Source: an uncultured Lachnospiraceae bacterium (lineage in GTDB: Bacteria; Bacillota; Clostridia; Lachnospirales; Lachnospiraceae). From it: a stretch of 35,001 nt of DNA. A program made the translations under genes and the position numbers. How positions within the stretch are numbered: position 1 is the first letter of the stretch; every line of letters begins with the position of its first letter. The notes below the pieces were generated by a model. The model was not told the DNA's origin. It saw only the letters and a list, made by a program, of their open reading frames with translations, and searched no databases. Positions 4,194 through 30,272 of this stretch are shown one piece after another. The DNA is taken from positions 1 to 35,001 of the forward strand of contig CACYTU010000017.1 in assembly GCA_902777355.1 (NCBI GenBank), in the 5' to 3' direction.

Positions 4194-4228
4194 AGGCCGG
4201 ACACCTTCAGAACGGGTGTCCGGCCTTT
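4194..4228 (+). terminator. Intrinsic terminator
   Basis: AGGCCGGACACC (4194-4205) pairs perfectly with GGTGTCCGGCCT (4215-4226), followed by a short T-run. A second GC-rich hairpin, GGCCGGA with TTCCGGCC near 4159-4178, precedes it. It closes the 90-residue gene's transcript, and a dispersed repeat copy starts immediately after it. Confidence 0.85.
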
Positions 4229-4229
4229 A

Positions 4230-4320
4230 CTATGACATGGCCCGGGTAATGTATTTTCTGCCTTCTGGCGGATGCGGGGCGGTCGGGGGGTGGGAGAGGG
4301 CGGTATGACTGTCCCTGCCC
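4230..4320 (+). repeat. Dispersed structured repeat, copy A
   Basis: This copy starts with CTATGACATGGCCCGGGTAA right after the terminator T-run. Its first 63 bases match copy C (minus strand, 30147-30233) at about 57 positions by eye. The conserved core includes GTATTTTCTGCCTT and GGTCGGGGGGT. The hairpin at its end is imperfect here, so this copy looks partly decayed. No gene fits the 4107-4790 region. Confidence 0.85.
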
Positions 4321-4417
4321 TGTTGACACGGCTCCCGTAACGAATTTTTCCGCCTTGCGGCGGATGCGGGGCGGTCGGGGGGTGGCAGAGAGCGGCGTGG
4401 CAGCCTCTGCCCTGTTG
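4321..4417 (+). repeat. Dispersed structured repeat, copy B
   Basis: This copy directly follows copy A in the same orientation. It shares TGACACGGC, the CCGCCTTGCGGCGG segment and GCGGTCGGGGGGT with copies A and C. It keeps a 7-base stem, GGCAGAG (4384-4390) with CTCTGCC (4405-4411). In copy C the same stem reads GGTAGAG with CTCTACC, a compensatory change that preserves pairing. Confidence 0.85.
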
Positions 4418-4505
4418 CCATAGGCAGCGCAATATATCTCACATTTCAGATGAATCCGTGCTCTCACTACTTTTCCACAAAAATCGATGAAAAAACGCTT
4501 TTTTA

Positions 4506-4535
4506 TTGTGCTATTTCCACAAGGTCTGTTATAAT
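4506..4535 (+). promoter_or_regulatory. Promoter of the lactate dehydrogenase-like gene
   Basis: A perfect extended -10, TGTTATAAT (4527-4535), lies about 255 bases before the start codon, with a weak -35 TTGTGC (4506-4511) at 18 bases. Two sequences one or two changes from a DnaA box (TTTTCCACA near 4474, ATTTCCACA near 4514) sit at or before it, possibly by chance. Confidence 0.65.
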
Positions 4536-4544
4536 GTATTTTAC

Positions 4545-4780
4545 GGAAGGTTCTGTCAGAAACCTTCCGCAGAAGGACACCAGGAGGTGTCCGGGAATCG
4601 GCCGCTCTGGTGAACGGGAGGTCCGAAGAGGGCAGAATACTTTATGATGGCAGGAGCGCGGAAGATTCCTGATCTCTGATGTACGTTGACCGCGGGTGGC
4701 TGCCCGTCGGGAAATCTGCAGTATGGCGGCATTCCCCGGAGGTTTGCCGGCCTCATGATTCGGGTGATGATTCAAGGAGG
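4545..4780 (+). ncRNA. Long structured 5' leader, unidentified
   Basis: About 240 bases separate the promoter from the ribosome binding site. The leader begins with two clean hairpins: GGAAGGTT with AACCTTCC, and GGACACC-AGGA-GGTGTCC. GC-rich, partly self-complementary sequence follows, including CGGGTGGCTGCCCG. No known riboswitch consensus was recognised, and no T-run terminator is visible before the gene. It may be a cis-regulatory RNA or simply a long leader. Confidence 0.4.
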
Positions 4781-4790
4781 ATCAGATACT

Positions 4791-5747
4791 ATGGCAGTAA
4801 ATAAGAGAAAAGTGGCAATTGTGGGATGCGGACGTTCCGGTTCAGCAGTCAGCTTTGCGCTGATGCAGAGCGGACTGTTTGCGGAGATGGTGCTTGTTGA
4901 CTCGCTGACACAGAAAGCTGAGCGCACAGCCCTGGATCTGGCGTACGGTATCTCATTTGTGAAACCAATGAATATCTACGGAGGCGGGTATGACGATCTC
5001 GCCGATGCCGGCATTATCGTGATTGCCGCGGGAGAACCCTGGGTCAAAGGCGACACACGTATGGATTTCATCCGTAAGAACGTAAATGTCCTTGAATCTA
5101 TTGTCCCGGAGATCGCTAAGAGAAACACAGAGGCCATCTTCCTGATCGTCTCGAACCCTGTCGATATCCTGACTTATGCTGCACTGAAATACATTGAGAT
5201 TCCGGAGAGCCGGATCATGGGTATCGGAACGGTCGCTGACACAGCCCGTGTCAAATCTCTGATCGGGAAGAAACTCAATGTAGATGCCCGCAATGTCCAT
5301 GCCTTCGTCGTGGGTGAGCATGGCCGCTCCGAGGTTCCGATCTGGTCCAGCGCCCGTATTTCCGGTGTTCCGCTCTATGACTTCTTTGAGATGCGCGGTT
5401 ATCCGGATCCCGACGCCTTCCTGGAAGAGGTTATGAAAGGTGTGCGCTTTGACGCAGGAAACCTCAGCTACAGGAAAGAGGATACCTTCTTCGGCGTAGC
5501 AATGGCTGCACGCAGGGTCTGTGAGGCAATCGTGCGCGATGAAAAAGCCGTCCTCTCCGTCACATCCCTGATGTACGGTGCCTTTGATATCGACGGAATC
5601 GCCCTTTCCATGCCTGCAGTGGTCGGCGCTGAGGGCGTCGAGTGCCTTGTGCCTGTAGATATGAATGAGAAGGAAGCCGATGAAGTCCGCAAAGCTGCCG
5701 CGACAGTTATGTCGATTTCGGATCTGGTCCTGGATCAGGCCAGGTAA
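4791..5747 (+). CDS. L-lactate/malate dehydrogenase family enzyme, unusual substrate loop
   Basis: This 318-residue NAD-dependent 2-hydroxyacid dehydrogenase starts at ATG 4791, 5-15 bases after AAGGAGG. The Rossmann motif GCGRSGSAV is near residues 12-20. The catalytic set is kept: Arg90 in DTRMDF, Asp150 and Arg153 in VADTAR, His177 in GEHG. Two positions differ from ordinary lactate dehydrogenases. The specificity residue (Gln102 in standard numbering, Arg in malate dehydrogenases) is Trp84 in AAGEPWVKGD, and the Asp after GEHG is Arg179 (GEHGRSE). Fold and chemistry are therefore clear, but the substrate may not be pyruvate. The gene has its own promoter and long leader and no operon partner. 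Confidence 0.9.
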   Translation: MAVNKRKVAIVGCGRSGSAVSFALMQSGLFAEMVLVDSLTQKAERTALDLAYGISFVKPMNIYGGGYDDLADAGIIVIAAGEPWVKGDTRMDFIRKNVNVLESIVPEIAKRNTEAIFLIVSNPVDILTYAALKYIEIPESRIMGIGTVADTARVKSLIGKKLNVDARNVHAFVVGEHGRSEVPIWSSARISGVPLYDFFEMRGYPDPDAFLEEVMKGVRFDAGNLSYRKEDTFFGVAMAARRVCEAIVRDEKAVLSVTSLMYGAFDIDGIALSMPAVVGAEGVECLVPVDMNEKEADEVRKAAATVMSISDLVLDQAR

Positions 5748-5764
5748 TGAACCCGGAATCCGGG

Positions 5765-5950
5765 GGTCTGCGTAAGCCTTGAAATCGGTGAGGTTTTCAG
5801 GATCGGTGAGATTTCCGGAAGCTGTGAAATCAGCGGAACCTTTGGTATCTGCCAAATCAGCGGAATATTCAGGGTCTGTGAGATTTTCGGAAGCTGTGTG
5901 TTTTCAGAATCCATGAGATTTTCGAAATCTGTGAGCCTGTGAAATCTTTG
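5765..5950. repeat. Degenerate tandem repeats after the dehydrogenase gene
   Basis: The stretch repeats variants of GAAATCAGCGGAA, CTGTGAGATTTTCGGAAG and TTTTCAGGATCGGTGAG without a strict period. No ribosome binding site or credible gene is present. The remainder of the 5748-6146 gap holds the promoter and hairpin described next. Confidence 0.6.
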
Positions 5951-6025
5951 TAGTAAAGCAGCAGTTTCTGCGGGACTGAGAACAACGCTTATGATGATAA
6001 GTCGAAAGCGTTGAGATGATGAGAT

Positions 6026-6054
6026 TTGACAGGGCAGATTTTATAGAATACAAT
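6026..6054 (+). promoter_or_regulatory. Near-consensus promoter of the EamA transporter gene
   Basis: A perfect -35 TTGACA (6026-6031) and a -10 TACAAT (6049-6054) are separated by exactly 17 bases. The predicted start near 6061 lies 12 bases before a 14-base perfect palindrome. Confidence 0.8.
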
Positions 6055-6072
6055 TCGTTTTTATAGTGAGAC

Positions 6073-6106
6073 TTAAAGGCCGGGCTATACCAAGCCCGGC
6101 CTTTAA
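6073..6106 (+). terminator. Terminator-like hairpin or operator in the EamA leader
   Basis: TTAAAGGCCGGGCT (6073-6086) pairs perfectly with AGCCCGGCCTTTAA (6093-6106) around a 6-base loop. It begins about a dozen bases after the predicted transcription start and ends 40 bases before the start codon. The tail is only TTTAA, so termination may be weak. It could act as an attenuator, an operator for a repressor, or the terminator of a very short RNA. Confidence 0.6.
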
Positions 6107-6146
6107 TATGAGAGTTTGTGAACAGGCAAAGGACAAGGATTGGAAG

Positions 6147-7049
6147 ATGAGTAAAAACAGGACAGCAGGCAAAAAACAGGAAAGCATAAACGGAATAAAG
6201 GATAAAACTAAAGGGATTATCTTCATCCTTCTGGCGGCTTTTTTCTTTTCCACTATGTCGGTCTTTGTGCGGCTGTCCGGAGACGTCCCTACCATGCAGA
6301 AGGCCTTTTTCAGGAATATTGTCGCTGCTGTTGTGGCGGTGATCATCCTGCTGCGGTCCGGCGGACCTGTCACTGTCCGCAAAAAGAGTCTGCCGGCCCT
6401 GTTTCTGCGAAGTGCCTTTGGAACCGTGGGGATTCTGGCCAATTTCTGGGCGGTGGATCACCTGGACATTGCCGATGCAAATATGCTCAATAAACTGTCG
6501 CCTTTTTTCGCGATTCTGATGTCGATCTTTATCCTGGGGGAGAAGCCCAACCGGATCGAATGGATAAGTGTTGCTTTTGCCTTTATCGGAGCTGCTTTCG
6601 TGGCAAAACCCTCTTCGGGGATCATATCATTGCCTGCGCTGGTCGGAATTCTGGGTGGATTCGCTGCGGGTACTGCCTACACGTATGTGCGCAAGGCGGG
6701 ACTGCAGGGGGTCAGGGGTCCCATCGTCGTGGCCTTTTTTTCAACCTTTTCCACACTTGTGCTGCTGCCCAACCTGCTGATGAATTTCACGCCCATGAGT
6801 GGCAGACAGTTTATCCTCCTGATTCTGGCGGGCTGTGCCGCCGCGGGGGGACAGCTGTCTGTGACGGCAGCTTATCAGCATGCGCCCGCGCGGGATATCT
6901 CTGTGTTTGATTACTCCCAGATTATCTATGCAGCGTTTTTCGGATTCCTCCTGTTTGGAGAGATTCCGGATGTCTGGAGCGTGATCGGCTATGTGATTAT
7001 TATAGGGACTGCCTTTTTCAAGTGGTACCTTGTGACCCGCAAAGGATAA
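6147..7049 (+). CDS. EamA/DMT-family membrane transporter
   Basis: The 300-residue protein has about ten hydrophobic segments in two homologous halves, the hallmark of the drug/metabolite transporter superfamily. The first half starts GIIFILLAAFFFSTMSVFVR and contains the conserved LNKLSPFFAILMSIFILGEK. The second half ends with SQIIYAAFFGFLLFGEIPD, the matching signature. These proteins export or import small metabolites; the substrate cannot be read from sequence. ATG 6147 is chosen over the upstream ATG at 6066, which lies before the leader palindrome. A consensus promoter lies upstream and a strong terminator downstream, so the gene is transcribed alone. Confidence 0.9.
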   Translation: MSKNRTAGKKQESINGIKDKTKGIIFILLAAFFFSTMSVFVRLSGDVPTMQKAFFRNIVAAVVAVIILLRSGGPVTVRKKSLPALFLRSAFGTVGILANFWAVDHLDIADANMLNKLSPFFAILMSIFILGEKPNRIEWISVAFAFIGAAFVAKPSSGIISLPALVGILGGFAAGTAYTYVRKAGLQGVRGPIVVAFFSTFSTLVLLPNLLMNFTPMSGRQFILLILAGCAAAGGQLSVTAAYQHAPARDISVFDYSQIIYAAFFGFLLFGEIPDVWSVIGYVIIIGTAFFKWYLVTRKG

Positions 7050-7071
7050 GAATTTATGAGACAACAAAAAG

Positions 7072-7121
7072 ACCGTGGCCGCGCGATGATGGATTCACAT
7101 TCATCGCGGCTGCGGTTTTTT
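7072..7121 (+). terminator. Intrinsic terminator after the EamA gene
   Basis: A long stem includes CGCGATGA (7082-7089) paired with TCATCGCG (7101-7108), extended by flanking CCG/CGG pairs, followed by TTTTTT. It separates the EamA gene from the convergent AraC gene. Confidence 0.85.
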
Positions 7122-7164
7122 GATGTATTACTTTCTCCTGATTCGCGAGGCATCTGTCTGCCAA

Positions 7165-8070
7165 TCAGGACATTTTGTGCTTTTTCCGGTAGTCTCTGGG
7201 GGTCAGCCCGTAGATTTCTTTGAATATTTTGCCGAAATAACTGTCCGATAAAAAACCGCACTGTTCCGCGATCGAAGAGATGCTGTCGCCGGTGCGCTCC
7301 AGTTTCATTGCAGCCATCTGGGCGCGGTATTCGATCAGAAAGCGGATGGGAGGCCGGTCAATTGAACGGTGAAAACAACGCGTGCACTCGCGGGGGCTGA
7401 TTCCGGCGGCCGCCGCGATCTCATCGAGCCCGATGGGTTCACTGTACTGCGAATAAATAAATTGAAGCATCTGCTTCATGCGCTCCAGGTCACGCTCATT
7501 TCCCTTCTTTTCAGTGGCGCGGACAGACTCCGTCTCTTCCTGCATGAGCAGGAAAAAGCGGCTGAGAATTTCCCGGACAGTGAACTCGTAGCCGGCAGGT
7601 TCTTCCCGCATCTGGTCGATGGCTTTCAGGATGGACCCGATCATATGGATTCGCCGCGCGGAATCGGATCTCAGATGGAGGGCAGGGAGACTTTTGCTGC
7701 GCAGAATCGGAGCAAAGTACTTGCGGTCTATGTAGCTTCCGAATTCACCTGCCAGAAAACGGGCGTCAAAGATGAAGGAATAATAGTTGACCTGATCTGG
7801 AAAATCATAGGCGTGCATAATGTTCCTGTTTATAAAGATCACATCGCCGGGGCGCGCCTCCACCTCCTGATCGGTGGTATACATTTTCAAAATCCCGCTG
7901 TCCACATAGTTCAGTTCAATCCAGTCGTGCCAGTGCCAGGGAATGTGATTGCCTGTAAAGAGCCGGCTCTCGTCATAGTAGCACACGAAAGGAAGCCCGC
8001 CGGAATCCTCCGACAGGAGCTCCTCGCTGTTGTCCTTTAAAGTCAGATTTTTTTTCTTATAACAAATCAT
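7165..8070 (-). CDS. AraC-family transcriptional regulator
   Basis: The 301-residue protein has an N-terminal cupin sensor domain, with HIPWHWHDWIELNYV and ARPGDVIFINRNIMHAY typical of sugar- or metabolite-sensing AraC regulators. The C-terminal pair of helix-turn-helix motifs includes IGLDEIAAAAGISPRECTR and SISSIAEQCGFLSDSYFGKIF followed by GLTPRDYRK. The ATG at 8070 follows AGGAGGG on the minus strand. It converges on the EamA gene. The adjacent upstream region carries the remnant of a sugar-binding protein gene on the other strand, so the regulator may once have controlled a sugar uptake operon that is now lost. Confidence 0.92.
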   Translation of the reverse strand: MICYKKKNLTLKDNSEELLSEDSGGLPFVCYYDESRLFTGNHIPWHWHDWIELNYVDSGILKMYTTDQEVEARPGDVIFINRNIMHAYDFPDQVNYYSFIFDARFLAGEFGSYIDRKYFAPILRSKSLPALHLRSDSARRIHMIGSILKAIDQMREEPAGYEFTVREILSRFFLLMQEETESVRATEKKGNERDLERMKQMLQFIYSQYSEPIGLDEIAAAAGISPRECTRCFHRSIDRPPIRFLIEYRAQMAAMKLERTGDSISSIAEQCGFLSDSYFGKIFKEIYGLTPRDYRKKHKMS

Positions 8071-8377
8071 GTCAAATCCCTCCTCTGAGGAATATGGGTA
8101 CAGATCTTATATCCTCAATTATTTATATCAGGCAGAATAAACAGGCGGTTTATCCCTTATTATGGCAAAATATGCCGGTTTTTATGGCTTTATAGTTATA
8201 TTTTAGCACATATCCAAACACAAAAAACATGCAGAAGGATGAATTTTGTAGAAAAACAAAGAGTTTTTTAGGGGAATTTTTAAGGAACGGAGATGTTGAA
8301 TATGACCGGATTAAGATAGTTTTGGTCAGAAAAGGCTCTGAAAAAGGCGAGCCCGCCCACCTATAATACAGACATAA

Positions 8378-8490
8378 GGAACAGCAAAGTCAATCAAAAA
8401 GGAACAGAAAAGAAAACAAAAAAGGAACAGCAAAGAAAACAAAAAAGGAACAGCAAAGTCAGGCAAAAAGAAACAGCAAAGTCAGTTTGA
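8378..8490. repeat. 23-base tandem repeat array
   Basis: GGAACAGCAAAG-type units start at 8378, 8401, 8424, 8447 and 8470, an exact 23-base period. The array passes into shorter CACCGGAAGAAA repeats to about 8545. It is A-rich on the plus strand and shows no credible gene. The region 8071-8377 before it is AT-rich, with no supported feature beyond the AraC upstream sequence. Confidence 0.85.
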
Positions 8491-8652
8491 AAAACACCGG
8501 AAGAAACACCGGTGAGGAAAAGGCACCGGAAGAAACACCGTTGAGGGAAAGTGCAGAAAGACGCGCGGAACCTCCCGGCCCGGCAGCAATGAGTTGTGAA
8601 ATCAACCATACCAACCATACAGACAAAAACGAATACATCAAATCAAAAAATC

Positions 8653-8844
8653 CAGGGCAAGATGGCGATGACCGTTTTCCAGAGCGCAAAGGGACAGGCA
8701 GAAGGATCTGTTGCCGCAGCGATCAATATGGTCGAGGGAAATGACCTGGCAAAGGACACCAATTGTGAAGTGTCCAAAGAAAACCCCCATGTACTGTATG
8801 TTCCCTTCGTTCCGGTGACATCTGAGAACGTGGACGATATCTGA
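8653..8844 (+). pseudogene. Remnant of a sugar ABC transporter substrate-binding protein (C-terminal end)
   Basis: About 63 codons read GKMAMTVFQSAKGQAEGSVA and end near LYVPFVPVTSENVDDI. This matches the C-terminus of ribose/galactose-type periplasmic binding proteins, where a TVFQ-type strand, a QGxG helix and a PFVPVTxENV end are typical. The upstream codons do not continue the family, no signal peptide or ribosome binding site is present, and tandem repeats lie just before it. It is best read as a 5'-truncated gene relic, still followed by its terminator at 8941-8977. Confidence 0.7.
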
Positions 8845-8940
8845 GTAAAACTTAAGACAGGGCAGAAAACACAGCAACAGGGCAGAGAACACATTGATAC
8901 AACGATAGTTTAAAAATATATTACATCCTCTTAAACAGGA

Positions 8941-8983
8941 GAGCCTGCAGACAGACTGACTGCCTGCAGGCTCTTTTGTTTTT
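8941..8983 (+). terminator. Intrinsic terminator after the binding-protein remnant
   Basis: GAGCCTGCAG (8941-8950) pairs with CTGCAGGCTC (8964-8973), followed by TTTTGTTTTT. Its plus orientation fits the remnant gene, not rubredoxin. Confidence 0.85.
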
Positions 8984-9085
8984 CCAAGGTAAAATGCCCG
9001 TGAAATATTATTACTATTCCGCATTGAAGAGAACACGGACCTTCGATATTCACGGTCAGGCGGGAACACTGAGAATCCGGATGAA

Positions 9086-9256
9086 TTATTCCTCTTCCTC
9101 GTAAGGGGAGAACTCATCTTTTCCTACGCTGCAGAGGGGACACTCGAAATCATCGGGAAGATCTTCGAACTTGGTTCCGGGCTCGATGCCGGCCTCGAGA
9201 TCGCCGTTGTCCTCGTCATAGATGTATCCGCAAACGCCACAAACAAATTTTGCCAT
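9086..9256 (-). CDS. Rubredoxin
   Basis: This 56-residue iron protein is an electron carrier, often used in oxygen or peroxide detoxification in anaerobes. It has the family pattern: [14 protein letters not shown] gives the first CxxC and [15 protein letters not shown] the second, with the usual spacing and the conserved PGTKFEDLP between them. The four cysteines bind one iron. The ATG at 9256 follows GGAGG with 7-base spacing on the minus strand. The C-terminus ends in four glutamates, a little longer and more acidic than usual. It stands alone, so its partner enzyme must be elsewhere. Confidence 0.97.
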
Positions 9257-9382
9257 ACTTATTCCTCCATTGAGAATTTTGATTAAATATTGGTTTTTTT
9301 ATAATGCAATGATAGAATGATATTTCTATTAGTACATTAACAAAAGAGCAATGCTGTGTCAAAGAGTATTTCACTGTTCTCC

Positions 9383-9424
9383 GACAAGGTGCTGCGCTGC
9401 CCCCCTGACGAGGTGCTGCGCTGC
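9383..9424. repeat. 24-base direct duplication before the MATE gene
   Basis: GACAAGGTGCTGCGCTGC (9383-9400) recurs as GACGAGGTGCTGCGCTGC (9407-9424). It lies in the leader about 75 bases before the start codon. Confidence 0.7.
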
Positions 9425-9497
9425 ACCCGGGAGAGGTGTTTTACGGATCCCGGACCAGGTATCTCATTATTCCCTGCAGGGAGTGAGAGGAGTTAAT

Positions 9498-10832
9498 ATG
9501 CAGTCAGACAATTTCACGCAGGGCAGTATTGTGCGCGGAATGCTGCGCTTTTCGGTCCCCTACCTGATCACCTGTTTTCTGCAGACATTTTATGGTATGG
9601 GGGACCTGTTCATTGTGGGGCAGTTCAACGAGGCGGCCTCGATCACGGCAGTGTCTGTCGGGAGCCAGCTGATGCACATGCTGACAGTGGTGATCGCAGG
9701 CTTTGCCATGGGTTCCACGGTTCTGATCGGCCGCAGCGTCGGAGCAGGGAACCGGAAAGGAATATCGGCAGCAGTCAGTACGACATTCGCGGTCTTCGCT
9801 GCTCTGGCAGCGGTGCTGACCCTGGTGCTTTTGGCCTGCACCGATCCGATCATCGGCGTACTGCAGGTTCCCGCCGAGGCGGTGCAGGAGGCAGCGGCCT
9901 ACATGCGAATATGCTTTGCGGGAGTCATTTTTATCACGGCCTATAACGTTGTCTCCGCCGTTTTCCGGGGGCTGGGCGATACACGGCGCCCCATGTATTA
10001 TGTCGCCGCTGCGGGTGTTATCAACGTCGGTCTGGACTGGCTGCTGGTGGGACCTCTGGGAATGGGCGCGGGCGGCGCGGCGGCCGCCACGGTGGCAAGC
10101 CAGGGGATCTCGGTCCTTCTGGGCATGATCGCCCTGAAAAAATATCACAGTGATGCATTTCCCAGGTCGCTCCGTCCGGACGGGGAGGACGCCGGATATA
10201 TCCTGGGCATCGGCCTTCCCATCGCTCTGCAGGAGGGACTGATCCAGGTCTCCTTCCTGGTGATTACCATGATCGCCAACAGCCGGGGCGTGGAAGTCGC
10301 GGCGGCAGTCGGAATCGTGGAAAAAGTCATCAGTTTCCTCTTCCTGGTACCCAGTGCCATGCTTTCAACCGTGTCTGCTCTCTGTGCCCAGAATGCGGGA
10401 GCAGGCCGGCATGACAGGAGCAGGCAGGTGCTGCGCATAGGCTGTATGATCTGCGCGGGATTCGGAGCAGTCATTTTCGCCCTCTGCCAGCCGCTGGCTC
10501 CATGGATCGTCTCCCTCTTTGTGAAAAACGGAAACAATGTCGAAACGGTGGTTCGCCTGGGAGGACAGTATCTGCGCACTTATTCCGTCGACTGCATGAT
10601 CGCAGGCATCCACTTCTGCTTCAGCGGTTTTTTCAGTGCCTACGGAAGGTCTGTCTATTCGTTCCTGCACAATATTATTTCCATCATCACCTTCAGGATT
10701 CCCGGTGCCTGGATCGCGGCTGTGTATTTTCCCGCGACCCTCTACCCTATGGGGCTTGCGGCGCCCATGGGGTCGCTTCTGTCCGTCCTGATCTGCCTCT
10801 TCCTCTACAGGCGGATGAAACTGAAGGGCTGA
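9498..10832 (+). CDS. MATE-family multidrug/toxin efflux transporter
   Basis: The 444-residue protein has about twelve hydrophobic segments in two related halves, as in MATE exporters that use Na+ or H+ gradients. Family features include the N-terminal GSIVRGMLRFSVPYLIT, the helix MGDLFIVGQFNEAASITAVS and the repeat-half segment IANSRGVEVAAAVGIVEKV. ATG 9498 follows GAGAGGAG, and the family begins MxxxxxxG at this point; a longer upstream reading frame is Cys-rich and spurious. It has no operon partner. The exported compound is unknown. Confidence 0.93.
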   Translation: MQSDNFTQGSIVRGMLRFSVPYLITCFLQTFYGMGDLFIVGQFNEAASITAVSVGSQLMHMLTVVIAGFAMGSTVLIGRSVGAGNRKGISAAVSTTFAVFAALAAVLTLVLLACTDPIIGVLQVPAEAVQEAAAYMRICFAGVIFITAYNVVSAVFRGLGDTRRPMYYVAAAGVINVGLDWLLVGPLGMGAGGAAAATVASQGISVLLGMIALKKYHSDAFPRSLRPDGEDAGYILGIGLPIALQEGLIQVSFLVITMIANSRGVEVAAAVGIVEKVISFLFLVPSAMLSTVSALCAQNAGAGRHDRSRQVLRIGCMICAGFGAVIFALCQPLAPWIVSLFVKNGNNVETVVRLGGQYLRTYSVDCMIAGIHFCFSGFFSAYGRSVYSFLHNIISIITFRIPGAWIAAVYFPATLYPMGLAAPMGSLLSVLICLFLYRRMKLKG

Positions 10833-10837
10833 GAGCA

Positions 10838-10930: not shown

Positions 10931-11011
10931 GGATAAAGAATGCAGGATCCATGTAGTCAGGAACCGGGGGCATTCCCGAATCCCTACACCACGCATTAAA
11001 CGGGAGTTAAA

Positions 11012-11641: not shown

Positions 11642-11691
11642 TAACCGGAATAATAGCCGCACTGATCCATATTGTTTTTACAAACAACATT

Positions 11692-14766: not shown

Positions 14767-14783
14767 CTTCAAATATAACAGAC

Positions 14784-19038: not shown

Positions 19039-21021
19039 ATGAGAATAGGACTGAGGGATATTATTCCGGTGCTGTATTCCGGATTGTATTTTGTGCTGGC
19101 TGGCGGGGTAATCGCCCTTGCGGTACTGGCTTTCCGCGAAGATGTTCCCCCGTATGCGCGGGATCCTCCCTGTTTCCTTCCACTCAGGAAAATGGCTGTT
19201 TTTCTGTATAGAAAACTCCTCGAATATCGGGAAAAGAGAAGGAAGAAAGGAAAGGATTTCCCGATCCCGGGGGAGGAGGGGGTGCGGAACGATTTCTCAG
19301 TTCTGTACCCCTCGATCAAGGCACGGCGCTGCGAGATCGTCTACAGGATTGCCAAGACCGAGAAGATTTTGCTTCTGTTAATAGCCGGAATAGTGCTTGC
19401 CGGAGTCCTGCACTTTCAGTCTCTGGGATCCGGAGTAGTACGGGATGACGGAACAATAGAACGGGCACCGGCAGGCGGATCGGACCGCAGGGTCAGTGTG
19501 ACGGCTCTTCCCGCGCCTGTACCTGAGCCTGTACCCGAATCTGTACCTGAGTCTGTAACCGAATCTGTTCCTGAGTCTGTACCCGGGTCTGTGCCTGTAG
19601 CGCAGGAAGAGGCAGAGAGGGCAAAGACAGAGAAAATGTCCGGTGCGGAGGCGGCGGAAATGGCAAAAGAATCGGGAACGACGGCAGCATTGGCTAAAGA
19701 GATGGCAGAAACGGTGGAAGTGACGGAAGCACCGGGAACGATGGCAGCATCGGCCAAAGAGATGGCAGAGGCGGCGGAAATGGCAAAAGAATCGGGAACG
19801 ACGGCAGCATCGGCCAAAGAGATGGCAGAAACGGCGGAAGTGACAAAAGAATCGGGAACGACAGCAGTATCGGCAAAAGAGACAGAAGAGCCGGAAAAAG
19901 AAGCGGAAGCAGCAGTAGAACAGGGAGGTGAGGAGACAGAGAAGAAAAAGGATTTCGGGACTTATACAGTCACTGTACATGCGCGCCGGCTGACCCGTCC
20001 GGAGGCAGAAAAACAGGCCGGGAATATTCTGAAACGCTTTCCGGACTGCCTGCTGGGTGACAATGCAGATGCTGATGATATCCGGCAGCCCTTGAAAATG
20101 CCGGCAGCGGAAGAATTATTTCCCTTTGCGGCGGACTGGGAGAGCAGCCGGTACGCAGTACTGGATACTGACGGGAGTATTTTTAACAGCGAGTATGCCG
20201 ACGACAGGGCAGAGAAAGCGGACCTGACTCTGATCCTCACATACGGAGACTGGAGATTTGAAAAAAAGATGTCCTTCACGGTCAGGGCGCCGGTCCGGGA
20301 CGAGGAGACCAGATTCCGGGGAGAAATCGAGAATACACTGAAGGAGGCTGAAAAGAAAAGTTCTGAGGACAATATTTTTTCCCTGCCCTCCGAGGCGGAC
20401 GGAACCGCCCTGGTTTGGAAGGAACAGATTGAAGACGTCAGCTCCGGGATCCTGTTGATGGGAATGCTGATCTGCGCGTGCGCCTGGTACATGATGGACC
20501 GCAGAATTCATGAACGGACGATTGAGAGGAGCCGCCAGCTGGCAATTGACTATCCTCAGCTCATCAGCAGGATTGTCCTGTACCTGGGCGCGGGAATGAG
20601 CGTGCGCAATGTTTTTTATAAATGCGCCTCGGAATACCGCGGCCAACAGGAAGCGGAGAGCAAAAGGAAAGCGGGAAAAAAACAGAACATTCGATATCTC
20701 TATGAGGAAATCCTTCTGGTATGCAATGAACTTGACAGCGGAGTTGCTGAGGCGGAAGCCTACATGCACTTCGGGCGCAGATGCCATTCCCGCCAGTACA
20801 CAAAGCTCTGCAGCCTTCTGGTCCAGAACCTCCGCAGAGGAAATGACACCCTGCTGGCTGTTTTGCAGGAGGAGGCACAGAGTTCATTTGAAGAACGGAA
20901 AAATCTGGCCAGAGAACTTGGGGAAGAGGCGGGGACAAAGCTGCTTCTGCCGATGATGATTATGCTCGGCGTGACAATGCTGATCATTATCGTACCGGCA
21001 TATTTCAGTTTTTCCATGTAA
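19039..21021 (+). CDS. tadC: TadC-like platform protein with large extracytoplasmic insertion
   Basis: At 660 residues this is about twice the usual TadC length. Membrane segments lie near residues 10-32, 109-126, 468-488 and 634-658. The C-terminal T2SF domain (about 495-630) includes YPQLISRIVLYLGAGMSVRN and YTKLCSLLVQNLRRGNDTLL. Basic residues at 65-72 place that loop inside, so the roughly 340-residue insertion (127-467) should face outside. The insertion has a PVPESVPE-type stretch, four 20-residue Ala/Glu/Lys/Thr-rich repeats (19654-19893) and a possibly folded part from about residue 310 to 450 (TYTVTVHARRL to MSFTVRAPV). It follows tadB by 44 bases. The T2SF identity is firm; the insertion's function is unknown. 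Confidence 0.82.
   Translation: MRIGLRDIIPVLYSGLYFVLAGGVIALAVLAFREDVPPYARDPPCFLPLRKMAVFLYRKLLEYREKRRKKGKDFPIPGEEGVRNDFSVLYPSIKARRCEIVYRIAKTEKILLLLIAGIVLAGVLHFQSLGSGVVRDDGTIERAPAGGSDRRVSVTALPAPVPEPVPESVPESVTESVPESVPGSVPVAQEEAERAKTEKMSGAEAAEMAKESGTTAALAKEMAETVEVTEAPGTMAASAKEMAEAAEMAKESGTTAASAKEMAETAEVTKESGTTAVSAKETEEPEKEAEAAVEQGGEETEKKKDFGTYTVTVHARRLTRPEAEKQAGNILKRFPDCLLGDNADADDIRQPLKMPAAEELFPFAADWESSRYAVLDTDGSIFNSEYADDRAEKADLTLILTYGDWRFEKKMSFTVRAPVRDEETRFRGEIENTLKEAEKKSSEDNIFSLPSEADGTALVWKEQIEDVSSGILLMGMLICACAWYMMDRRIHERTIERSRQLAIDYPQLISRIVLYLGAGMSVRNVFYKCASEYRGQQEAESKRKAGKKQNIRYLYEEILLVCNELDSGVAEAEAYMHFGRRCHSRQYTKLCSLLVQNLRRGNDTLLAVLQEEAQSSFEERKNLARELGEEAGTKLLLPMMIMLGVTMLIIIVPAYFSFSM
19654..19893 (+). 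repeat. Four 60-base in-frame repeats inside tadC
   Basis: Each unit encodes 20 residues such as AEMAKESGTTAASAKEMAET, alternating with VEVTEAPGTMAASAKEMAEA-type versions. The alternating unit pattern suggests duplication of a 120-base pair of units. It encodes a flexible or helical stalk in the outside part of the protein. Confidence 0.88.
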
Positions 21022-24296: not shown

Positions 24297-24348
24297 ATAA
24301 CCGAAGGACCCGTCAGGGAAAACATATGGATCGAGGGAGGGAAGCAGA

Positions 24349-24834
24349 ATGGCTGGATTATTTCCGCAAGAGATGGAAGGAAGTGCCGGAATCAGGCTTT
24401 TGCTGGCGGCTGTCTATGTGGGAATCTGCGCAGTGCAGGACCTCAAAAGACGCAAGATCAGCCTTCCGGTCACTGTCTGTGCAGGATGCGCGGCATTCCT
24501 GCTGGACATTCCCATCATGGCGAAAGGAGGAGAGAATATTTTCCGCCTGATCCCGGGCATGCTGCCGGGGGCCATGTTCCTGCTTCTTTCGCTGGCGGCT
24601 GAAGGCGCAGCCGGGAAAGGAGACGGATACTGCTTTCTGGTCCTGGGGGCCCTGCTCGGAACCCGGATGGTGTGGACTGTTGCGCTGACTTCGCTCCTTT
24701 TGGCTTCTCTGTGCGGAATCCTGCTGATGATCTTCAGGAGAGCGGAGAGAAAAACCAGACTGCCTTTTTTGTTTTTCACCGGCCTTGCCTTAGCAGGAGA
24801 TATGCTTTTGTGCCTCGGGAAAATTCAATGGTGA
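24349..24834 (+). CDS. Second prepilin peptidase (A24 family)
   Basis: The 161-residue membrane protease has the two aspartate sites, CAVQDLKRRKISL and AAGKGDGYCFLVLG, and about five membrane helices. It is as short as the first peptidase (14937-15407) but differs widely in sequence. GGAGGGAAGCAGA precedes ATG 24349. It lies between two TadE-like genes, so it may mature those pseudopilins while the first enzyme handles Flp, or they may be redundant. It lies 53 bases after the previous stop. Confidence 0.85.
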   Translation: MAGLFPQEMEGSAGIRLLLAAVYVGICAVQDLKRRKISLPVTVCAGCAAFLLDIPIMAKGGENIFRLIPGMLPGAMFLLLSLAAEGAAGKGDGYCFLVLGALLGTRMVWTVALTSLLLASLCGILLMIFRRAERKTRLPFLFFTGLALAGDMLLCLGKIQW

Positions 24835-24910
24835 CAGGACCGGGAAACGGGTATCGCCCCATTCTCTGCCCTGACGTAAAAGGAAAAAGCGGTATAAGCG
24901 CGATCAGGAG

Positions 24911-25121
24911 TATAAACGGCATAAGAGTGCACGTGCAGTCAGGAGTATAAACGGCATAAGAGTGTACGCGCAATCAGGGATATAAACGGCATAAGAGTGT
25001 ACGCGCAATCAGGGATATGAACGGCATAAGAGTGCACGTGCAGTCAGGAGTATAAACGGCATAAGAGTGTACGCGCAATCAGGGATATGAACGGCATTAA
25101 GAGTGTACGCGCAATCAGGGA
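24911..25121. repeat. 35-base tandem repeat array inside the tad locus
   Basis: Six units begin at 24911, 24946, 24981, 25016, 25051 and 25086, each starting TATAAACGGCATAAGAGTG or TATGAACGGCATAAGAGTG. Two subtypes alternate: A ends CACGTGCAGTCAGGAG and B ends TACGCGCAATCAGGGA, in the order A B B A B B, so a 105-base block was duplicated. Degenerate units extend to 24880 and 25160. There are no unique spacers, so it is not CRISPR. The gap 24835-25167 holds no gene. Confidence 0.92.
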
Positions 25122-25167
25122 TAATAACGGTATTAAGAGCATCATGACAGTAAGGATATAAGCGGCA

Positions 25168-25677
25168 ATGGGGAAGGCTCATAAAAACACAGATCAAAAA
25201 AGGAACGGCGGCCTCCTTTTCGGAGATCATGACGCCTATTTCACAGTTGAAGCAGCGCTTGTCATACCGATCGTGCTGGGCATCCTGGTGATGATCATTT
25301 ATCTGTCATTTTATCTATATGACAGGTGTGTGATGGCCCAGGACTGCTATGTGCTCAGCTATCGGCAGAGTATCGAAAAAGGCAATGCGGACAGAGCCGG
25401 TCAGGAAAAGATCCGGGAGCAGCTCGCTGGGAAACTCTTTATGCTGTCCGGAATGGATGCAGGTTCGTCTGCCGGAGGAACGATCCGGGTGAAGACGGAA
25501 GGGCAGATGGATCCTCCCCTGTTCGGGCTTCCTGTATTCGAGGAGGAAAACCACTGGAAGATCGCTGTGGAGAGAAAGGCCAGGAAGACAGATCCTCCCA
25601 GGGACTATCGGAGAGTGAGGAGGCTTCTCTACCTCGCCTCAAAAGTGATGCCGGGAGAAGCGGCGGATACCCCCTGA
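25168..25677 (+). CDS. TadE/TadF-like pseudopilin
   Basis: The 169-residue protein has the pilin-like segment HDAYFTVEAALVIPIVLGILVMIIYLSFYLY, with a Glu placed as in TadE/F, then an extracytoplasmic domain of about 110 residues. The first 22 residues are basic and cytoplasmic. It is the second TadE-like protein of the locus and lacks the Cys/His tail of the first. The ribosome binding site is weak (AAGG at 25152) because the start lies just after the 35-base array, so the array may affect translation. It ends 60 bases before the FHA gene. Confidence 0.8.
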   Translation: MGKAHKNTDQKRNGGLLFGDHDAYFTVEAALVIPIVLGILVMIIYLSFYLYDRCVMAQDCYVLSYRQSIEKGNADRAGQEKIREQLAGKLFMLSGMDAGSSAGGTIRVKTEGQMDPPLFGLPVFEEENHWKIAVERKARKTDPPRDYRRVRRLLYLASKVMPGEAADTP

Positions 25678-25737
25678 TTGTGGGAGGCAGTTCAGAGGCA
25701 GTAACAATATGTCCGGAACCTCAGAAAGGGATTGGTT

Positions 25738-27528
25738 ATGGATGACAATATCGTGAGGACTTTTTACAGTGACGCGTCCCACAACTACATGGTGATAGAA
25801 TGCCCTCATGAGCTGAGGGATAATTACCAATACAAGATGCTTGCGGCAAACCAGATCAGAGGACTTCTGCCCTGCAGCAGCCGATGCATTGATAATCAGG
25901 AATATCTGTATTACGACATCACCTCCAGACAGAGCATGGAGGATGTATATGACAGGAAGCCTGTCAGGGGAGCGGACATGGAAAAGCTTCTGGGAGACCT
26001 GCTGAGAGTAGAAAAAACTCTGACGGAATATCTTCTGGACGCATCGCATATGATCCTGGATCCCTCCTGCATATATATGGATTTCAGGGGGAATGAATGC
26101 TCATTTGTTTATTATCCCGGGGAAGTCGGCGATACCGGCTGGGAAGAGCTCTTTTCCTTTCTTGCAGACAGAGTGGACGGCAGGGACAAGAGGGCGGCCG
26201 CCCTTGTCTACCGTCTGTGCATGATGGCGGAGAAACCCGGATTCAGGCTAAGGGAGGAAACCCTGGAGGAACTGGGAATTCATATTGGGAAAAGAATGAA
26301 GGAAAACGGAAGCGGAGCGCTTTTCGATCCTGCCGATATCCGGGGAAGAGCCGGTTATACTCAGGGGGCATTTCCGGGGCAGGGATCAGAGAGATTTAAA
26401 GGATTCGACCGGGATAATTCCGGGGGACAGAGCTGCGCCGGGGGATATTCCACGGACTGTGCACGGGATTCCGGCAGAATGACTGCTGTGGAAGGAGAAT
26501 CCGGATCTTCCTTGTATGGATCCGAACGATATGGATTTGAAAGACATGAATTCGAGAGAGGGGGAAAGCGAGGCACAGGAAAAAGCGCAGGGTTCACAAC
26601 AGGCAGAGAATATGCAGAGAATGAAGCAGAGGCGGCTGACGGCATTTCAGGGAGCAGGGAAGATCCTTTTTTCAGCAGAATGCCGGTGCGGGTCATCCTC
26701 TCTCTGCTGATGGCTGCGGCAGGAACAGGCCTTATCTTTCTGCACAGGTTTGTTATCCTCGGGGAAACAGAAAGAATAATGACCTTTGCTGCGGGCGGGT
26801 TTCTGATTGCCGCAGGGATTCTGCTCCTTATAATTTCTCTGATCAGGAAACGGAGAGAAAAAAAGGAAGAAGACTATGGAACCGGAAAAGACCCGGTATA
26901 CAGAAACCCTGACCGCGCTTCAGAGACGCAGGGAACAGGGATCGAAGAACTGCTGTATGGAGGCGGACAGGAGGCGGAGATATGGAGTCCGGGAACTTCC
27001 GGCGGGCTTAGGAGCTTTTATGATCCCCGGGGATACAGCGATATGTCCGGGTATTCGGGGGATGAAAGAACAAGTGCCTTCAGGGATTATGAGAAAAGCC
27101 ATGCTGTACCCTCAGCAGGGGCGGAACCATCAGGCTATTCAGGCCGTACCGGAAGACAGGAAGGAGAGGGGAAAGGGCAATATGCCCGGGCTCTGCCCGG
27201 GGAGACCTGTGTTCTCGGACCGGAGACCGGCAGACCTGTGGCACTTTACGGGACCGGAACATGCAGGGGAGAGCAGATCAGCCTGGCGGACCTTCCCTGT
27301 GTAGTGGGGAAAATGCACGACTTTGTGGACCAGGTACTGGACGACAGCAGCGTAAGCCGTATGCACGCCCGCTTTTCAGTCGATCATGAAGGGAAGATGA
27401 CAGTAAGGGATCTGAACAGCACCAACGGCACCTGGCTGAACGGGGAACGCCTCATGCCCAATGAGAGCCGGGTGATCAGGCAGGGAGACCATGTCCGGCT
27501 GGGCAGTATGGAATTTGTCTATCGGTAA
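25738..27528 (+). CDS. DUF6382/FHA-domain membrane protein
   Basis: The 596-residue protein has three parts. The N-terminal 180 residues (from NIVRTFYSDASHNYMVIE through ITSRQSMEDVYDRKPV) match the DUF6382 kind of domain seen beside FHA domains in clostridia. A Gly/Ser/Glu-rich linker follows, then two membrane helices (VILSLLMAAAGTGLIFL and TFAAGGFLIAAGILLLIISLI). After a second low-complexity linker comes an FHA domain with VVGKMHDFVDQVL, SSVSRMHARFSVD and DLNSTNGTWLNGERL. FHA domains bind phosphothreonine, so it may link the pilus machine to a Ser/Thr kinase, none of which is in the window. ATG 25738 follows AAAGGG. It is the last tad-linked gene before a strong terminator. Confidence 0.85.
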   Translation: MDDNIVRTFYSDASHNYMVIECPHELRDNYQYKMLAANQIRGLLPCSSRCIDNQEYLYYDITSRQSMEDVYDRKPVRGADMEKLLGDLLRVEKTLTEYLLDASHMILDPSCIYMDFRGNECSFVYYPGEVGDTGWEELFSFLADRVDGRDKRAAALVYRLCMMAEKPGFRLREETLEELGIHIGKRMKENGSGALFDPADIRGRAGYTQGAFPGQGSERFKGFDRDNSGGQSCAGGYSTDCARDSGRMTAVEGESGSSLYGSERYGFERHEFERGGKRGTGKSAGFTTGREYAENEAEAADGISGSREDPFFSRMPVRVILSLLMAAAGTGLIFLHRFVILGETERIMTFAAGGFLIAAGILLLIISLIRKRREKKEEDYGTGKDPVYRNPDRASETQGTGIEELLYGGGQEAEIWSPGTSGGLRSFYDPRGYSDMSGYSGDERTSAFRDYEKSHAVPSAGAEPSGYSGRTGRQEGEGKGQYARALPGETCVLGPETGRPVALYGTGTCRGEQISLADLPCVVGKMHDFVDQVLDDSSVSRMHARFSVDHEGKMTVRDLNSTNGTWLNGERLMPNESRVIRQGDHVRLGSMEFVYR

Positions 27529-27756
27529 GAGCGTGTGTACTTACAGTGGAAAGGAACAGCTGAGACCTCCGTTACCCCTGTGAACAGGGCGCTCCACTGC
27601 GCTGCGAAATCAGACCGGTACACTGGCCCTGCAAACATCCAGCGGACAGCCTTATCCGTTACTGCTTTGAATACAGAGGCTGTGAATACAGACCTGTCCG
27701 TTACCCTTGTGAATATTGACGCGAAAAAGTGCCGATGATAAGATGATTGTTACAAG

Positions 27757-27807
27757 TCACTACCCGCACCAAACACTTAGCTGTTTGGTGCGGGGGCAGT
27801 GATTTTT
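27757..27807 (+). terminator. Intrinsic terminator closing the tad/FHA region
   Basis: TCACT (27757-27761) and CCCGCACCAAAC (27763-27774) pair with GTTTGGTGCGGG (27783-27794) and AGTGA (27798-27802), followed by TTTTT. The stretch before it (27529-27756) shows degenerate CCGTTACCCTTGTGAATA repeats and no supported gene. Confidence 0.9.
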
Positions 27808-27819
27808 ACTGGGCTCAAG

Positions 27820-27986
27820 GGCATTTTCCATTGGCCGAAGGCCTGTTTGGAATGGAAAACGCCTTGTTACTGGTCACGGTGTGACCAGTAACAGATGATT
27901 CCTGATGAGCGGTCAAAGGCAGGTTTGTGCCTTGACCGGTCAGGATTTATTCTTCATCGGTCAGTACCCGTGACTTCAGTCATGGG
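27820..27986 (+). other. Run of four further hairpins, candidate structured RNA
   Basis: Hairpin 1 pairs GGCATTTTCCATT (27820-27832) with AATGGAAAACGCC (27851-27863), one mismatch, with GGCC-GAA-GGCC inside. Hairpin 2 pairs GTTACTGGTCAC (27866-27877) with GTGACCAGTAAC (27881-27892) perfectly. Hairpin 3 pairs CCTGA and GGTCAA-GGCA with TGCC-TTGACC and TCAGG (27901-27944). Hairpin 4 pairs CCCGTGAC with GTCATGGG (27967-27986). None has a T-run. They follow the terminator directly and precede the HIT gene. No known RNA family was recognised. Confidence 0.6.
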
Positions 27987-28080
27987 ATGTGCGCGCAAGA
28001 CTCGAGACCGGGTCCTGAACGGGCCGCGGCTTAGCGCGGCAGGTATCGACAGTGTTATAAACAGGAGGTCTAAGATAAAT

Positions 28081-28488
28081 ATGAAAGATCAGAACTGCAT
28101 TTTCTGTAAAATAGCAAACGGAGAGATTCCGTCCAGAACTCTGTATGAGGATGAGAGATATCGTGTGATCCTGGACCTGGGTCCTGCCACAAAAGGGCAC
28201 GCCCTGGTACTGCCTAAAGAGCACTTTGCCAACATTTATGAGATTCCTGCGGAATGGGCGGCAGGCGCCATGGAAATCGGACAGAAGATGGCGATCCTCA
28301 TGAAGGAAAGGCTCCACACTGACGGCGCGAACCTTGTTCAGAATAACGGCGAGACCGCCGGACAGACTGTTCACCACTTCCACCTGCACATTATTCCCCG
28401 CTATAAGAACGATGGGCAGCGTATTCTCTGGAAACCCGGAAAAGCCACTGACGAGGAACTGGACGCTATCGTCAGCGCGATGAAGTAA
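28081..28488 (+). CDS. HIT-family protein (Hint-like nucleotide hydrolase)
   Basis: The 135-residue protein belongs to the histidine triad family, which hydrolyses nucleoside phosphoramidates or dinucleotides. The triad HHFHLHIIPRYK contains the HxHxH pattern with the nucleotidylated central histidine. The N-terminal CIFCKIANGEIPS is the zinc-binding-like entry of Hint proteins, and GHALVLPKEHFAN is the second conserved block. ATG 28081 lies 12 bases after AGGAGG and matches the family start; the in-frame extension to 27895 crosses the hairpin run and is not real. asnB-like starts 24 bases after its stop, so the two are probably co-transcribed. Confidence 0.95.
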   Translation: MKDQNCIFCKIANGEIPSRTLYEDERYRVILDLGPATKGHALVLPKEHFANIYEIPAEWAAGAMEIGQKMAILMKERLHTDGANLVQNNGETAGQTVHHFHLHIIPRYKNDGQRILWKPGKATDEELDAIVSAMK

Positions 28489-28512
28489 AAAGATGTGGAG
28501 AAGAACGAACGA

Positions 28513-30060
28513 ATGACAGAAATCAGGACATATAGAGGACATATCAGAAACTGGAAAGCCCTCGTGAGAGAGCTGGGGATCGAAGGCGCAGAGAAGCTCT
28601 CCAGACAGGAGAGAGAGCCCCTGATCCTTGAGAAGGCTTATGAGAAATGGGGACATGAGATGGGTCTCCATATGCACGGGATGTTCGCGCTTGCGCTGTG
28701 GGACGCAGACAGGAACGAATTGTTCTGCCTGCGCGATCCGTTCGGAACAAAGCCTTTTTACTATTGCCTGGCGGAAAACGGAAAGCTGCTGTACGGGACA
28801 ATGATCAGGGATATCCTTGCGGATCCGTCTTATCACAGGGAACTGAATGAGGATATGCTCCAGATTTACCTCAGTCTGACATACGGAGCGGGCGAGGACA
28901 CTTTTTTCAAAGGAATCAAAAAGCTGATGCCCGGCCGCTATCTCGTTGAGAAGGACGGACAGATCACGATAACCCGCTATTTTACTCCGACTTTTGCGCC
29001 GGATGAGAGCCGCGGGCTCCAGGACTGGGCGGATGAGATTCATGAGACGCTGAAAAACATTATGACAGAAGTCAAGGACCCGGACGAAGAGGCGGATTCC
29101 TTCCTTTCAGGCGGCGTCGATTCTTCCTATGTTCTGGCCATGTCGGACGCGAAGATGACGGATTCTGTCGGTTATGATGAGGAGAGATTTGACGAATCCG
29201 GACTGGCAAAGCAGACTGCAGACCTTCTGGGACGAGGATTCAGCCGCTGCAGGATCACTCCGGAGCAGTATTTCGGGATTGTACCCTGGGTCATGAAAAA
29301 TATGGAGCAGCCTCTCGCCGACGCTTCTGCAATCGCCTTTTCAATCGGCTGCCTCGAGACGGCGAAACACACGAAGCTCTGCTATTCGGGAGAGGGATCC
29401 GATGAGTTCTTCGGCGGTTACAATATGTACCGCAATGCTCCCCGCTATGGAGACAACCTGAAAAACTTTTACGTGGGCAACACCAACATCATGAAGGAAG
29501 ACGAGAAGGAGCGGATCCTTCTCAGGTATGACCCCGCGAATCTGCCGATCAACCTGGTCAAAGATATCTATAAGGAGACAGAGGGCCTGGATCCGCTGTC
29601 GAAGATGTCGGATGTGGATATTCAGATCTGGCTCGAGGGAGACATATATCTGAACGTCGACAAGATGAGTACAGCTGCAGGTCTGGAGATCCGCATGCCC
29701 CTTACGGACCGCAGGATCTTTGACATCGCGTCCCGCATGCCCTCCCGTTTCAAAGTGAACGAGGAGCAGAACAAAGTGGCCTTCCGGACTGCTGCGGCAA
29801 AGGTCCTCCCCGAAGAAATCGCGTTTAGAAAAAAACTGGGATTTATCGTTCCGATCCGGATCTGGATGGCGGACGAGAGATACAACAAAGATGTCAGGGA
29901 AAAACTCGCCGGCGCAAGCTGCGCGAAGTTCTTCCATGTGGAAGAGGTGCAGGCGATTTTCGATGAGTATATCGGCGGAAATTCGGACCTCTGGAGAAAA
30001 GTGTGGACGATTTACACCTTCCTGGTATGGTATGACGAATATTTCGGGGAAGAACTGTAA
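28513..30060 (+). CDS. Asparagine synthase-like protein lacking the glutaminase nucleophile
   Basis: The 515-residue protein aligns with glutamine-hydrolysing asparagine synthase from about residue 75 onward. The synthetase PP-loop SFLSGGVDSSYVLAMSD, the acidic SGEGSDEFFGGYNMY and STAAGLEIRMPLTDRR are all intact. The glutaminase half keeps GMFALALWDADR and LRDPFGTKPFYY, but Met-Cys-Gly-Ile and the Arg-Gly-Pro-Asp segment are absent. The upstream DNA is the HIT gene, so no missing part is hidden. ATG 28513 follows GGAGAAG; GTG 28495 has no site. It may use ammonia directly or adenylate another acid. Confidence 0.88.
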   Translation: MTEIRTYRGHIRNWKALVRELGIEGAEKLSRQEREPLILEKAYEKWGHEMGLHMHGMFALALWDADRNELFCLRDPFGTKPFYYCLAENGKLLYGTMIRDILADPSYHRELNEDMLQIYLSLTYGAGEDTFFKGIKKLMPGRYLVEKDGQITITRYFTPTFAPDESRGLQDWADEIHETLKNIMTEVKDPDEEADSFLSGGVDSSYVLAMSDAKMTDSVGYDEERFDESGLAKQTADLLGRGFSRCRITPEQYFGIVPWVMKNMEQPLADASAIAFSIGCLETAKHTKLCYSGEGSDEFFGGYNMYRNAPRYGDNLKNFYVGNTNIMKEDEKERILLRYDPANLPINLVKDIYKETEGLDPLSKMSDVDIQIWLEGDIYLNVDKMSTAAGLEIRMPLTDRRIFDIASRMPSRFKVNEEQNKVAFRTAAAKVLPEEIAFRKKLGFIVPIRIWMADERYNKDVREKLAGASCAKFFHVEEVQAIFDEYIGGNSDLWRKVWTIYTFLVWYDEYFGEEL

Positions 30061-30146
30061 ACAGCCATGAGTGGATTGACCGGACGGCGCCCTTCAGGAC
30101 GCAGAGAAAGTCCTCGGATATGAGGCGGTGAACTTAAGAGTAAATA

Positions 30147-30233
30147 GGGTAGAGGCGGTCACGCTGTCCTCTACCCCCCGACCGGCCCGCGTCCGCCGCA
30201 AGGCAGAAAATACATTACGCGGGCCGTGTCATA
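30147..30233 (-). repeat. Dispersed structured repeat, copy C (inverted)
   Basis: This is the best-kept copy. Two perfect stems are visible: GGGTAGAGG (30147-30155) with CCTCTACCC (30168-30176), and GGCCCGCGT (30184-30192) with ACGCGGGCC (30217-30225). Read on the minus strand it starts CTATGACACGGCCCGCG directly after the TTTTT of the esterase terminator, just as copy A follows another terminator. The gap 30061-30302 has no gene. Confidence 0.88.
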
Positions 30234-30234
30234 G

Positions 30235-30272
30235 AAAAACCGGGGCGATGCCGCCAATGGCATCGCCCCGGT
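30235..30272 (-). terminator. Intrinsic terminator of the esterase gene
   Basis: ACCGGGGCGATGCC (30239-30252) pairs perfectly with GGCATCGCCCCGGT (30259-30272). On the minus strand the stem is followed by TTTTT (30239-30235). Confidence 0.9.

Follow-up and report, generated by a model that had tools for sequence, protein, structure and literature searches.

A terminator-associated structured repeat of Lachnospiraceae with a tail resembling the 3' terminus of a group II intron

The DNA considered here is positions 1 to 35,001 of contig CACYTU010000017.1 from an uncultured Lachnospiraceae bacterium (assembly GCA_902777355.1; the whole of this stretch is called the window). It contains three copies, A, B and C, of a small element of ∼90 nucleotides (nt), which consists of an opening TATGACA, a head (outer stem, a bulge of ∼10 nt on the 5' side and an inner hairpin), a G run and a tail hairpin terminating in CTRCCCTRTT. 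TATGACA opens copy A on the plus strand right after TTTAC, and copy C on the minus strand right after TTTTTC. Copy A (4231..4324, plus strand; 76.5 bits with a covariance model of the element) comprises a left-bulged head hairpin followed by the tail hairpin and the end CTGCCCTGTT, and is preceded by a terminator-like hairpin, GGCCGGACACC..GGGTGTCCGGCC (4195..4225, plus strand; 12 bp, -24.1 kcal/mol), to which the short T-tract TTTAC (4226..4230, plus strand) connects it. Copy B (4325..4416, plus strand; 81.6 bits) abuts copy A at the junction CCCTGTT/GACACGG. Copy C (30143..30233, minus strand; 105.1 bits, rank 14 of 144 in the covariance model search) lies behind the terminator-like hairpin of the gene 5' of it, CCGGGGCGATGCC..GGCATCGCCCCGG (30240..30271, minus strand; 13 bp, -29.8 kcal/mol), and the T-tract TTTTTC (30234..30239, minus strand). 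Its head (30180..30230, minus strand) has the outer stem GAC-CGGCCCGCG/CGCGGGCCG-GTC, a 5'-side bulge of ∼10 nt and an inner hairpin with a TTGC loop, while its tail (30143..30177, minus strand) is the hairpin GGGTAGAGG..CCTCTACCC plus TATT, and resembles domain VI, the terminal part of a group II intron type (L205) described below.

A preliminary description of this DNA had placed copies A and C directly behind the T-runs of terminators with unrelated stems and copy B in tandem with A, and all of this is seen at the two sites: the hairpins of -24.1 and -29.8 kcal/mol are unrelated in sequence, and copy B starts immediately after copy A. The likeness of A and C also holds, with 56 identities in the first 63 bases (counting from the C that precedes TATGACA) in place of the approximately 57 estimated by eye. 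As to the statement that the sequence matches nothing known, comparison of the window with Rfam gave no family at the gathering score, laxer searches returned weak, unrelated matches only, and the openly accessible literature that was searched holds no account of such an element.

The element belongs to a dispersed family that far exceeds chance expectation. The genome of origin (G000; 3.87 Mb in 150 contigs, ∼84% complete) gave 45 BLAST matches to the 191-nt stretch of copies A and B, and 144 matches at E<=0.01 to the covariance model, which was built from 41 copies (150 of 1828 first-look candidates were scored). One subtype begins TATCGCAGGGC. Pairing is well conserved: in an alignment of 108 copies, itself fitted to the structure, 89.2% of pair cells hold standard pairs and 24 of the 31 pairs of the two hairpins show changes on both sides, a number reached in none of 500 shuffles, and the unfitted 41-copy alignment gives 91.5% standard pairs with both-sided changes in 12 of 31. 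The dispersed, structured repeat of the preliminary description is thus confirmed. Its distribution is patchy, with the element found at E<=1e-4 in 9 of 41 congeneric genomes. A family-wide sample of 120 genomes, under strict filters, yielded only the genome of origin and one weak match (G113, E 6e-5), and BLAST searches of 24 genomes from other families found no element. Exact and degenerate pattern scans of viral contigs gave 0 and 0 matches; pattern scans of genome contigs gave 0 at first and then four stretches, in three assemblies named Lachnospiraceae or Eubacteriales.

The position behind terminators is a property of the family as a whole. For 117 of the 144 copies the flanks were examined, and a site was scored as a terminator if a hairpin directly upstream had a GC foot, at least 5 bp and a folding energy of -6 kcal/mol or lower, and was followed by a T-rich tract; this rule was fixed after the sequences had been seen, and the controls were scored under the same rule. 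Such a hairpin and T-tract directly precede 89 of the 117 copies, including 48 of the 50 best-scoring ones. In the controls the same arrangement was scored at 70 of 1136 upstream and 92 of 1103 downstream points chosen at random, on the opposite side of 11 of the 117 copies, and in 53 of 585 shuffled flanks (an earlier rule, which let the stem absorb the T-run, gave 55 of 117 and was superseded). No two of the 89 hairpins are alike. Terminators precede 53 of 58 copies in the better-scoring half and 36 of 59 in the worse half, as expected if a target preference acts at insertion and then decays. Several of the remaining 28 copies were seen by eye to lie directly behind another copy (ranks 17, 54, 74, 118, 120, 136 and 140); two more (ranks 52 and 98) lie behind the hairpin of a repeat with IS605-like ends, and rank 83 is the intron-element chimera described below. 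End-to-end joins also occur: 11 of the 71 copies whose end can be recognised continue directly into another copy. By crude calls of open reading frames (ORFs), 10 of the 117 lie within a long ORF. In relatives and named records, 38 matches were reduced to 27 copies by removing 10 duplicates and one truncated match, and 24 of these 27 are behind terminator-like hairpins. The proposal that the element targets terminators is therefore upheld in the genome of origin and in its relatives, and neither outcome that the preliminary description had named as fatal to it, a family of only three copies or a lack of terminators beside the other copies, was found.

Comparison with 651 kb of the closest relative found, G198, shows that the element moves. 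The flanks of 28 of the 117 copies could be located there, giving 23 sites whose states were read by eye. Seven have a matching terminator and no element (ranks 4, 8, 18, 20, 24, 38 and 56), two have the element in both genomes (ranks 11/17 and 19), seven lack the element and have no recognisable terminator (ranks 3, 23, 26, 34, 35, 54/62 and 68), and seven are uninformative (ranks 22, 50, 58, 79, 83, 85 and 98). Rank 20 provides a clean pair, ..ACCCCTTTTTTGTTG.. versus ..ACCCCTTTT-TATGACA...CTACTCTAT-TTGTTTG.., which is an insertion into the T-run, with no clear target duplication (one or two T's cannot be judged). At rank 4, behind a gene named by eye as glgP-like, the terminator stands alone in six other species, and the G198 site may hold a short relic of the element. 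Terminators that lack the element in relatives show that it was added behind pre-existing terminators. At copy C, the counterpart place in eight relatives gave no element match, and the terminators there have diverged; copies A and B are absent from G198 together with a whole stretch of ∼1 kb. The orientation of the element relative to the terminator is fixed. Inspection by eye of the ends, TATGACACGG and CTACCCTAT, showed no terminal inverted repeats, and with no clear target duplication either, the suggested comparison with miniature inverted-repeat transposable elements is not supported. TTTAT was considered as the target word and dropped, because in the relative the junction has no TAT at six of the seven sites without the element, rank 38 being the one that does. 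Taken jointly, the family, its terminator target and its mobility can be regarded as established with little room for doubt.

A group II intron that shares the element's type of target and its 3' end is the closest partner. The single reverse transcriptase (RT) match in the genome of origin, L208, is the 5' half of a group II intron, with its RT, cut by the contig end, and the 5' end of this intron, GTGTGCCGGGC, lies right behind the terminator ..GGATGG..CCATCCTGTTTTTATCAT. L208 is 98% identical over 1188 nt to the intron L205 (in G017), to which L211 (in G008) is 99% identical over 747 nt. L205 and L211 end in ..CCCCTCTACCCTAT(T), and Rfam RF00029, whose consensus ends cCUACCCcAU, aligns both to its last position with scores of 37.9 and 34.9 bits, just below the gathering score of 40. 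The last hairpin and 3' end of the element (CTCTACCCTAT) match this intron end, L205 terminating in ..GGGAGGGGCGGAGCCGTTCGGCTCCCCTCTACCCTAT and the element consensus in ..GGGTAGAGGGCGGCGTGGCCGCCTCTACCCTAT. Alignment of the tail to the intron end scores 28, against a maximum of 22 in 500 dinucleotide shuffles, and the identical terminal run is 12 bases with L205 and L211 and 2 bases with L203 and L201, introns of the same genus. Of the 117 copies, 79 end with at most two mismatches from CTCTACCCTATT, compared with 0 of 585 random 22-mers. The 5' ends of this intron type at L205, L208, L116 and L376 (the last a 5' fragment in G198) were seen by eye to start right behind a terminator, and at L090 the intron starts right behind an element tail. 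The locus L116 is a chimera, in which a terminator is followed by ∼35 nt of intron 5' end and then by the element from bulge to tail.

Two further observations concern the introns themselves. L208, L205 and L211 are 98-99% alike across three species of the genus, the other DNA of which is far more divergent, which suggests recent transfer of the intron. A second intron type of the genus (L203, positions 1-145; ∼64% identical to L205) starts behind a terminator-like hairpin and ends CTACTCGAT.

Insertion at intrinsic terminators is described for group IIC introns (PMC4424553). Like these introns, the element lies behind intrinsic terminators in the same orientation and has a similar 3' hairpin and end, but they are ∼2 kb long with an RT, domain V and the 5' motif GUGYG, whereas the element has ∼90 nt, no RT or GUGYG, and no domain V that could be found. 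The same source calls ORF-less group II introns rare in bacteria (PMC4424553). Those served in trans are, like the element, non-autonomous and accompanied by related introns in the same genome, although they keep their ribozyme, whereas the element has no ribozyme core and far more copies. Small, structured, intergenic repeats in many copies are also found among the repetitive extragenic palindromic (REP) and REPIN elements associated with RAYT transposases, and among the palindrome-associated transposable elements (PATEs) derived from IS200/IS605; unlike these, the element has no RAYT link, a fixed position behind terminators and an intron-like tail. In eukaryotes, certain short interspersed nuclear elements (SINEs) combine an unrelated structured head with a 3' tail derived from a partner long interspersed nuclear element (LINE). 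The element has in common with these SINEs the unrelated structured head, a 3' tail matching that of its partner, a chimera with the partner and end-to-end copies, and differs in its bacterial host, its group II intron partner and its terminator target.

On these grounds we lean, by a modest degree, towards the view that the element is a non-autonomous, SINE-like retroelement and that the machinery of a group IIC-type intron copies it. In this reading the element, which itself encodes no RT or maturase, would join its own structured head to a copy of the domain VI and 3' end of a terminator-targeting (IIC) intron resident in the same genomes. Copying in trans by the intron machinery would be the simplest account of the target, the orientation and the 3' end. 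In the first step, the element would be transcribed, probably by read-through past the host terminator. In the second step, the intron RT/maturase or ribonucleoprotein would recognise this RNA by its domain VI tail, and perhaps also by the head. In the third step, the primer and target that the intron uses at a hairpin followed by T's would be reused to copy the element into the T-run; the target, orientation and clean insertion are observed, and the priming is presumed. In the fourth step, further elements or the intron would insert behind the tail, or the enzyme would jump from template end to template end. The tail, a GC hairpin with TATT behind it, could itself serve as a further target, giving head-to-tail pairs and intron-element neighbours; these arrangements are observed, and either route could have produced them. 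The chimera and the end-to-end copies resemble products of template switching, which is known for group II intron RTs. A fuller version is put forward more tentatively, at a little under even chances. In it the element would be the first bacterial SINE, a parasite of a group IIC intron. Having neither ribozyme nor RT, it would offer just the domain VI tail and its own head as the handle for recognition, would be copied at terminators by the RT of the intron with template jumping from end to end, and would exceed its partner in copy number by one to two orders of magnitude.

Several points weigh against copying by the intron. The tail match is limited to 12-13 terminal bases and a similar hairpin, and at one tail position the element most often has G (CTGCCC), the intron A. 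When the whole element is the query, the score of 28 is reached by 4 of 500 shuffles, and the head alone is not significantly similar to the intron (30 of 500 shuffles). No GUGYG 5' end is present, the copies starting with TATGACA or close variants, and the only copy to show GTGTG is the chimera L116, which could be a deletion after nested insertion. Two copies searched alone gave no RF00029 match, and hence no domain V, up to E 10. The intron RT was not found in the carriers G198, G009 and G010, whose assemblies are incomplete (G198 has the intron 5' fragment only), and the RT loci examined from the carriers G026, G028 and G195 are of other types. Judging from the near-identity of its sequences, the L205-type intron may be a recent arrival in these species, and the IIC class of the partner is based on its target and not on protein phylogeny. 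Mismatches in the paired positions are equally often G.T (120) and A.C (119), which fits decay of dead copies or action at the DNA level and gives no sign that single copies are kept as RNAs.

The most probable alternative is a mobile element moved by an enzyme of unspecified type. Its likeness to the intron tail would then be convergent, arising from a shared need for a GC hairpin with TATT after it. The shortness of the match, the failure to link any intact mobiliser to the element and the carriers in which no intron RT was found are consistent with this, but a terminal run of 12 bases is seen only with the intron type found in carriers, two other introns of the genus sharing 2 bases, and convergence does not readily account for the chimera L116 or the neighbouring intron and element at L090. 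We consider it unlikely, though the strongest of the alternatives.

Somewhat less likely again is a fragment of a single-strand DNA transposon, moved like the palindrome-associated elements by a Y1 transposase of the IS200/IS605 type. The two hairpins would then be the element ends, and single strands consisting of a hairpin plus T's the target of the enzyme. Y1 genes are present in all 10 carriers among 19 genomes searched (G000, G198, G026, G009, G008, G028, G010, G195, G017 and G013), which makes this the main DNA-based rival. The repeat with IS605-like ends often follows TTTAT behind terminators, three copies of the element lie behind its terminal hairpin, and the unit-to-unit junctions without TAT would fit end-to-end joins. 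Against this, 43 Y1 and RT loci yielded one weak nearby match (17.8 bits, E 0.13) and no convincing copy, the Y1 proteins of the genome of origin are ordinary IS200/IS605 transposases, the relative lacks TAT at all empty junctions except rank 38, and the intron-like 3' end and the chimera are left unexplained.

A host part kept behind terminators without mobility, such as an additional terminator or a read-through-blocking RNA, would agree with the position and with the conserved structure and its compensatory changes, but is highly improbable given the relatives' terminators that lack the element, its patchy occurrence in the genus, the equal mismatch counts, the chimeras and the tandem copies. 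A REP/REPIN family maintained by a RAYT, the other comparison made in the preliminary description, is just as improbable despite the small, palindromic, intergenic repeats and their many copies, as the Y1 proteins of the genome of origin score 27-38 bits against a RAYT cut-off of 80 and four loci of relatives with longer RAYT-like Y1 genes have no element nearby, although incomplete assemblies could hide such a gene.

Other repeats and genes were observed in passing. The longer RAYT-like Y1 transposase genes of relatives are at L225, L237, L238 and L239, with GGGGACGGTTC-type motifs beside the last two. The repeat family with IS605-like ends, TTTATTCTTCATCGCGC..GTGACTTCAGTC..GCAAGACTCGCGGGCGAGTCTTGAAT, occurs in the window at ∼27920-28020 and at L022, L094, L100, L130, L246 and L315; a terminator T-run precedes several of its members, and the three element copies mentioned above sit directly behind it. 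Another repeat of ∼135 nt (L170, 8120-8253) has matches in several relatives, partly in tandem. The window also contains a 35-nt tandem repeat in at least six overlapping copies (24857-25132), 60-nt repeats (19645-19944) within a 660-aa ORF (19039-21021), and 39-nt repeats (34337-34570) within a 411-aa ORF (33577-34812).

Even if no retro-mechanism is involved, the insertion of small elements behind terminators across a genus amounts to a new safe-site strategy; terminators are thereby marked, and many genes come to be followed by additional hairpins. The intron partnership would be categorically new; without it, the element is still a new terminator-targeting mobile element. If the partnership is real, similar parasites should exist for other IIC introns, and these would have gone unnoticed, since domain V or the RT gene is what searches look for. 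It would also mean that the split between an autonomous copier and a tail-sharing parasite, as in LINEs and SINEs, arose in bacteria too, here with a group II intron as the copier; such introns have been proposed as the ancestors of spliceosomal introns. Intron machinery would then be able to mobilise RNAs stripped of their ribozyme, as models of intron spread assume.

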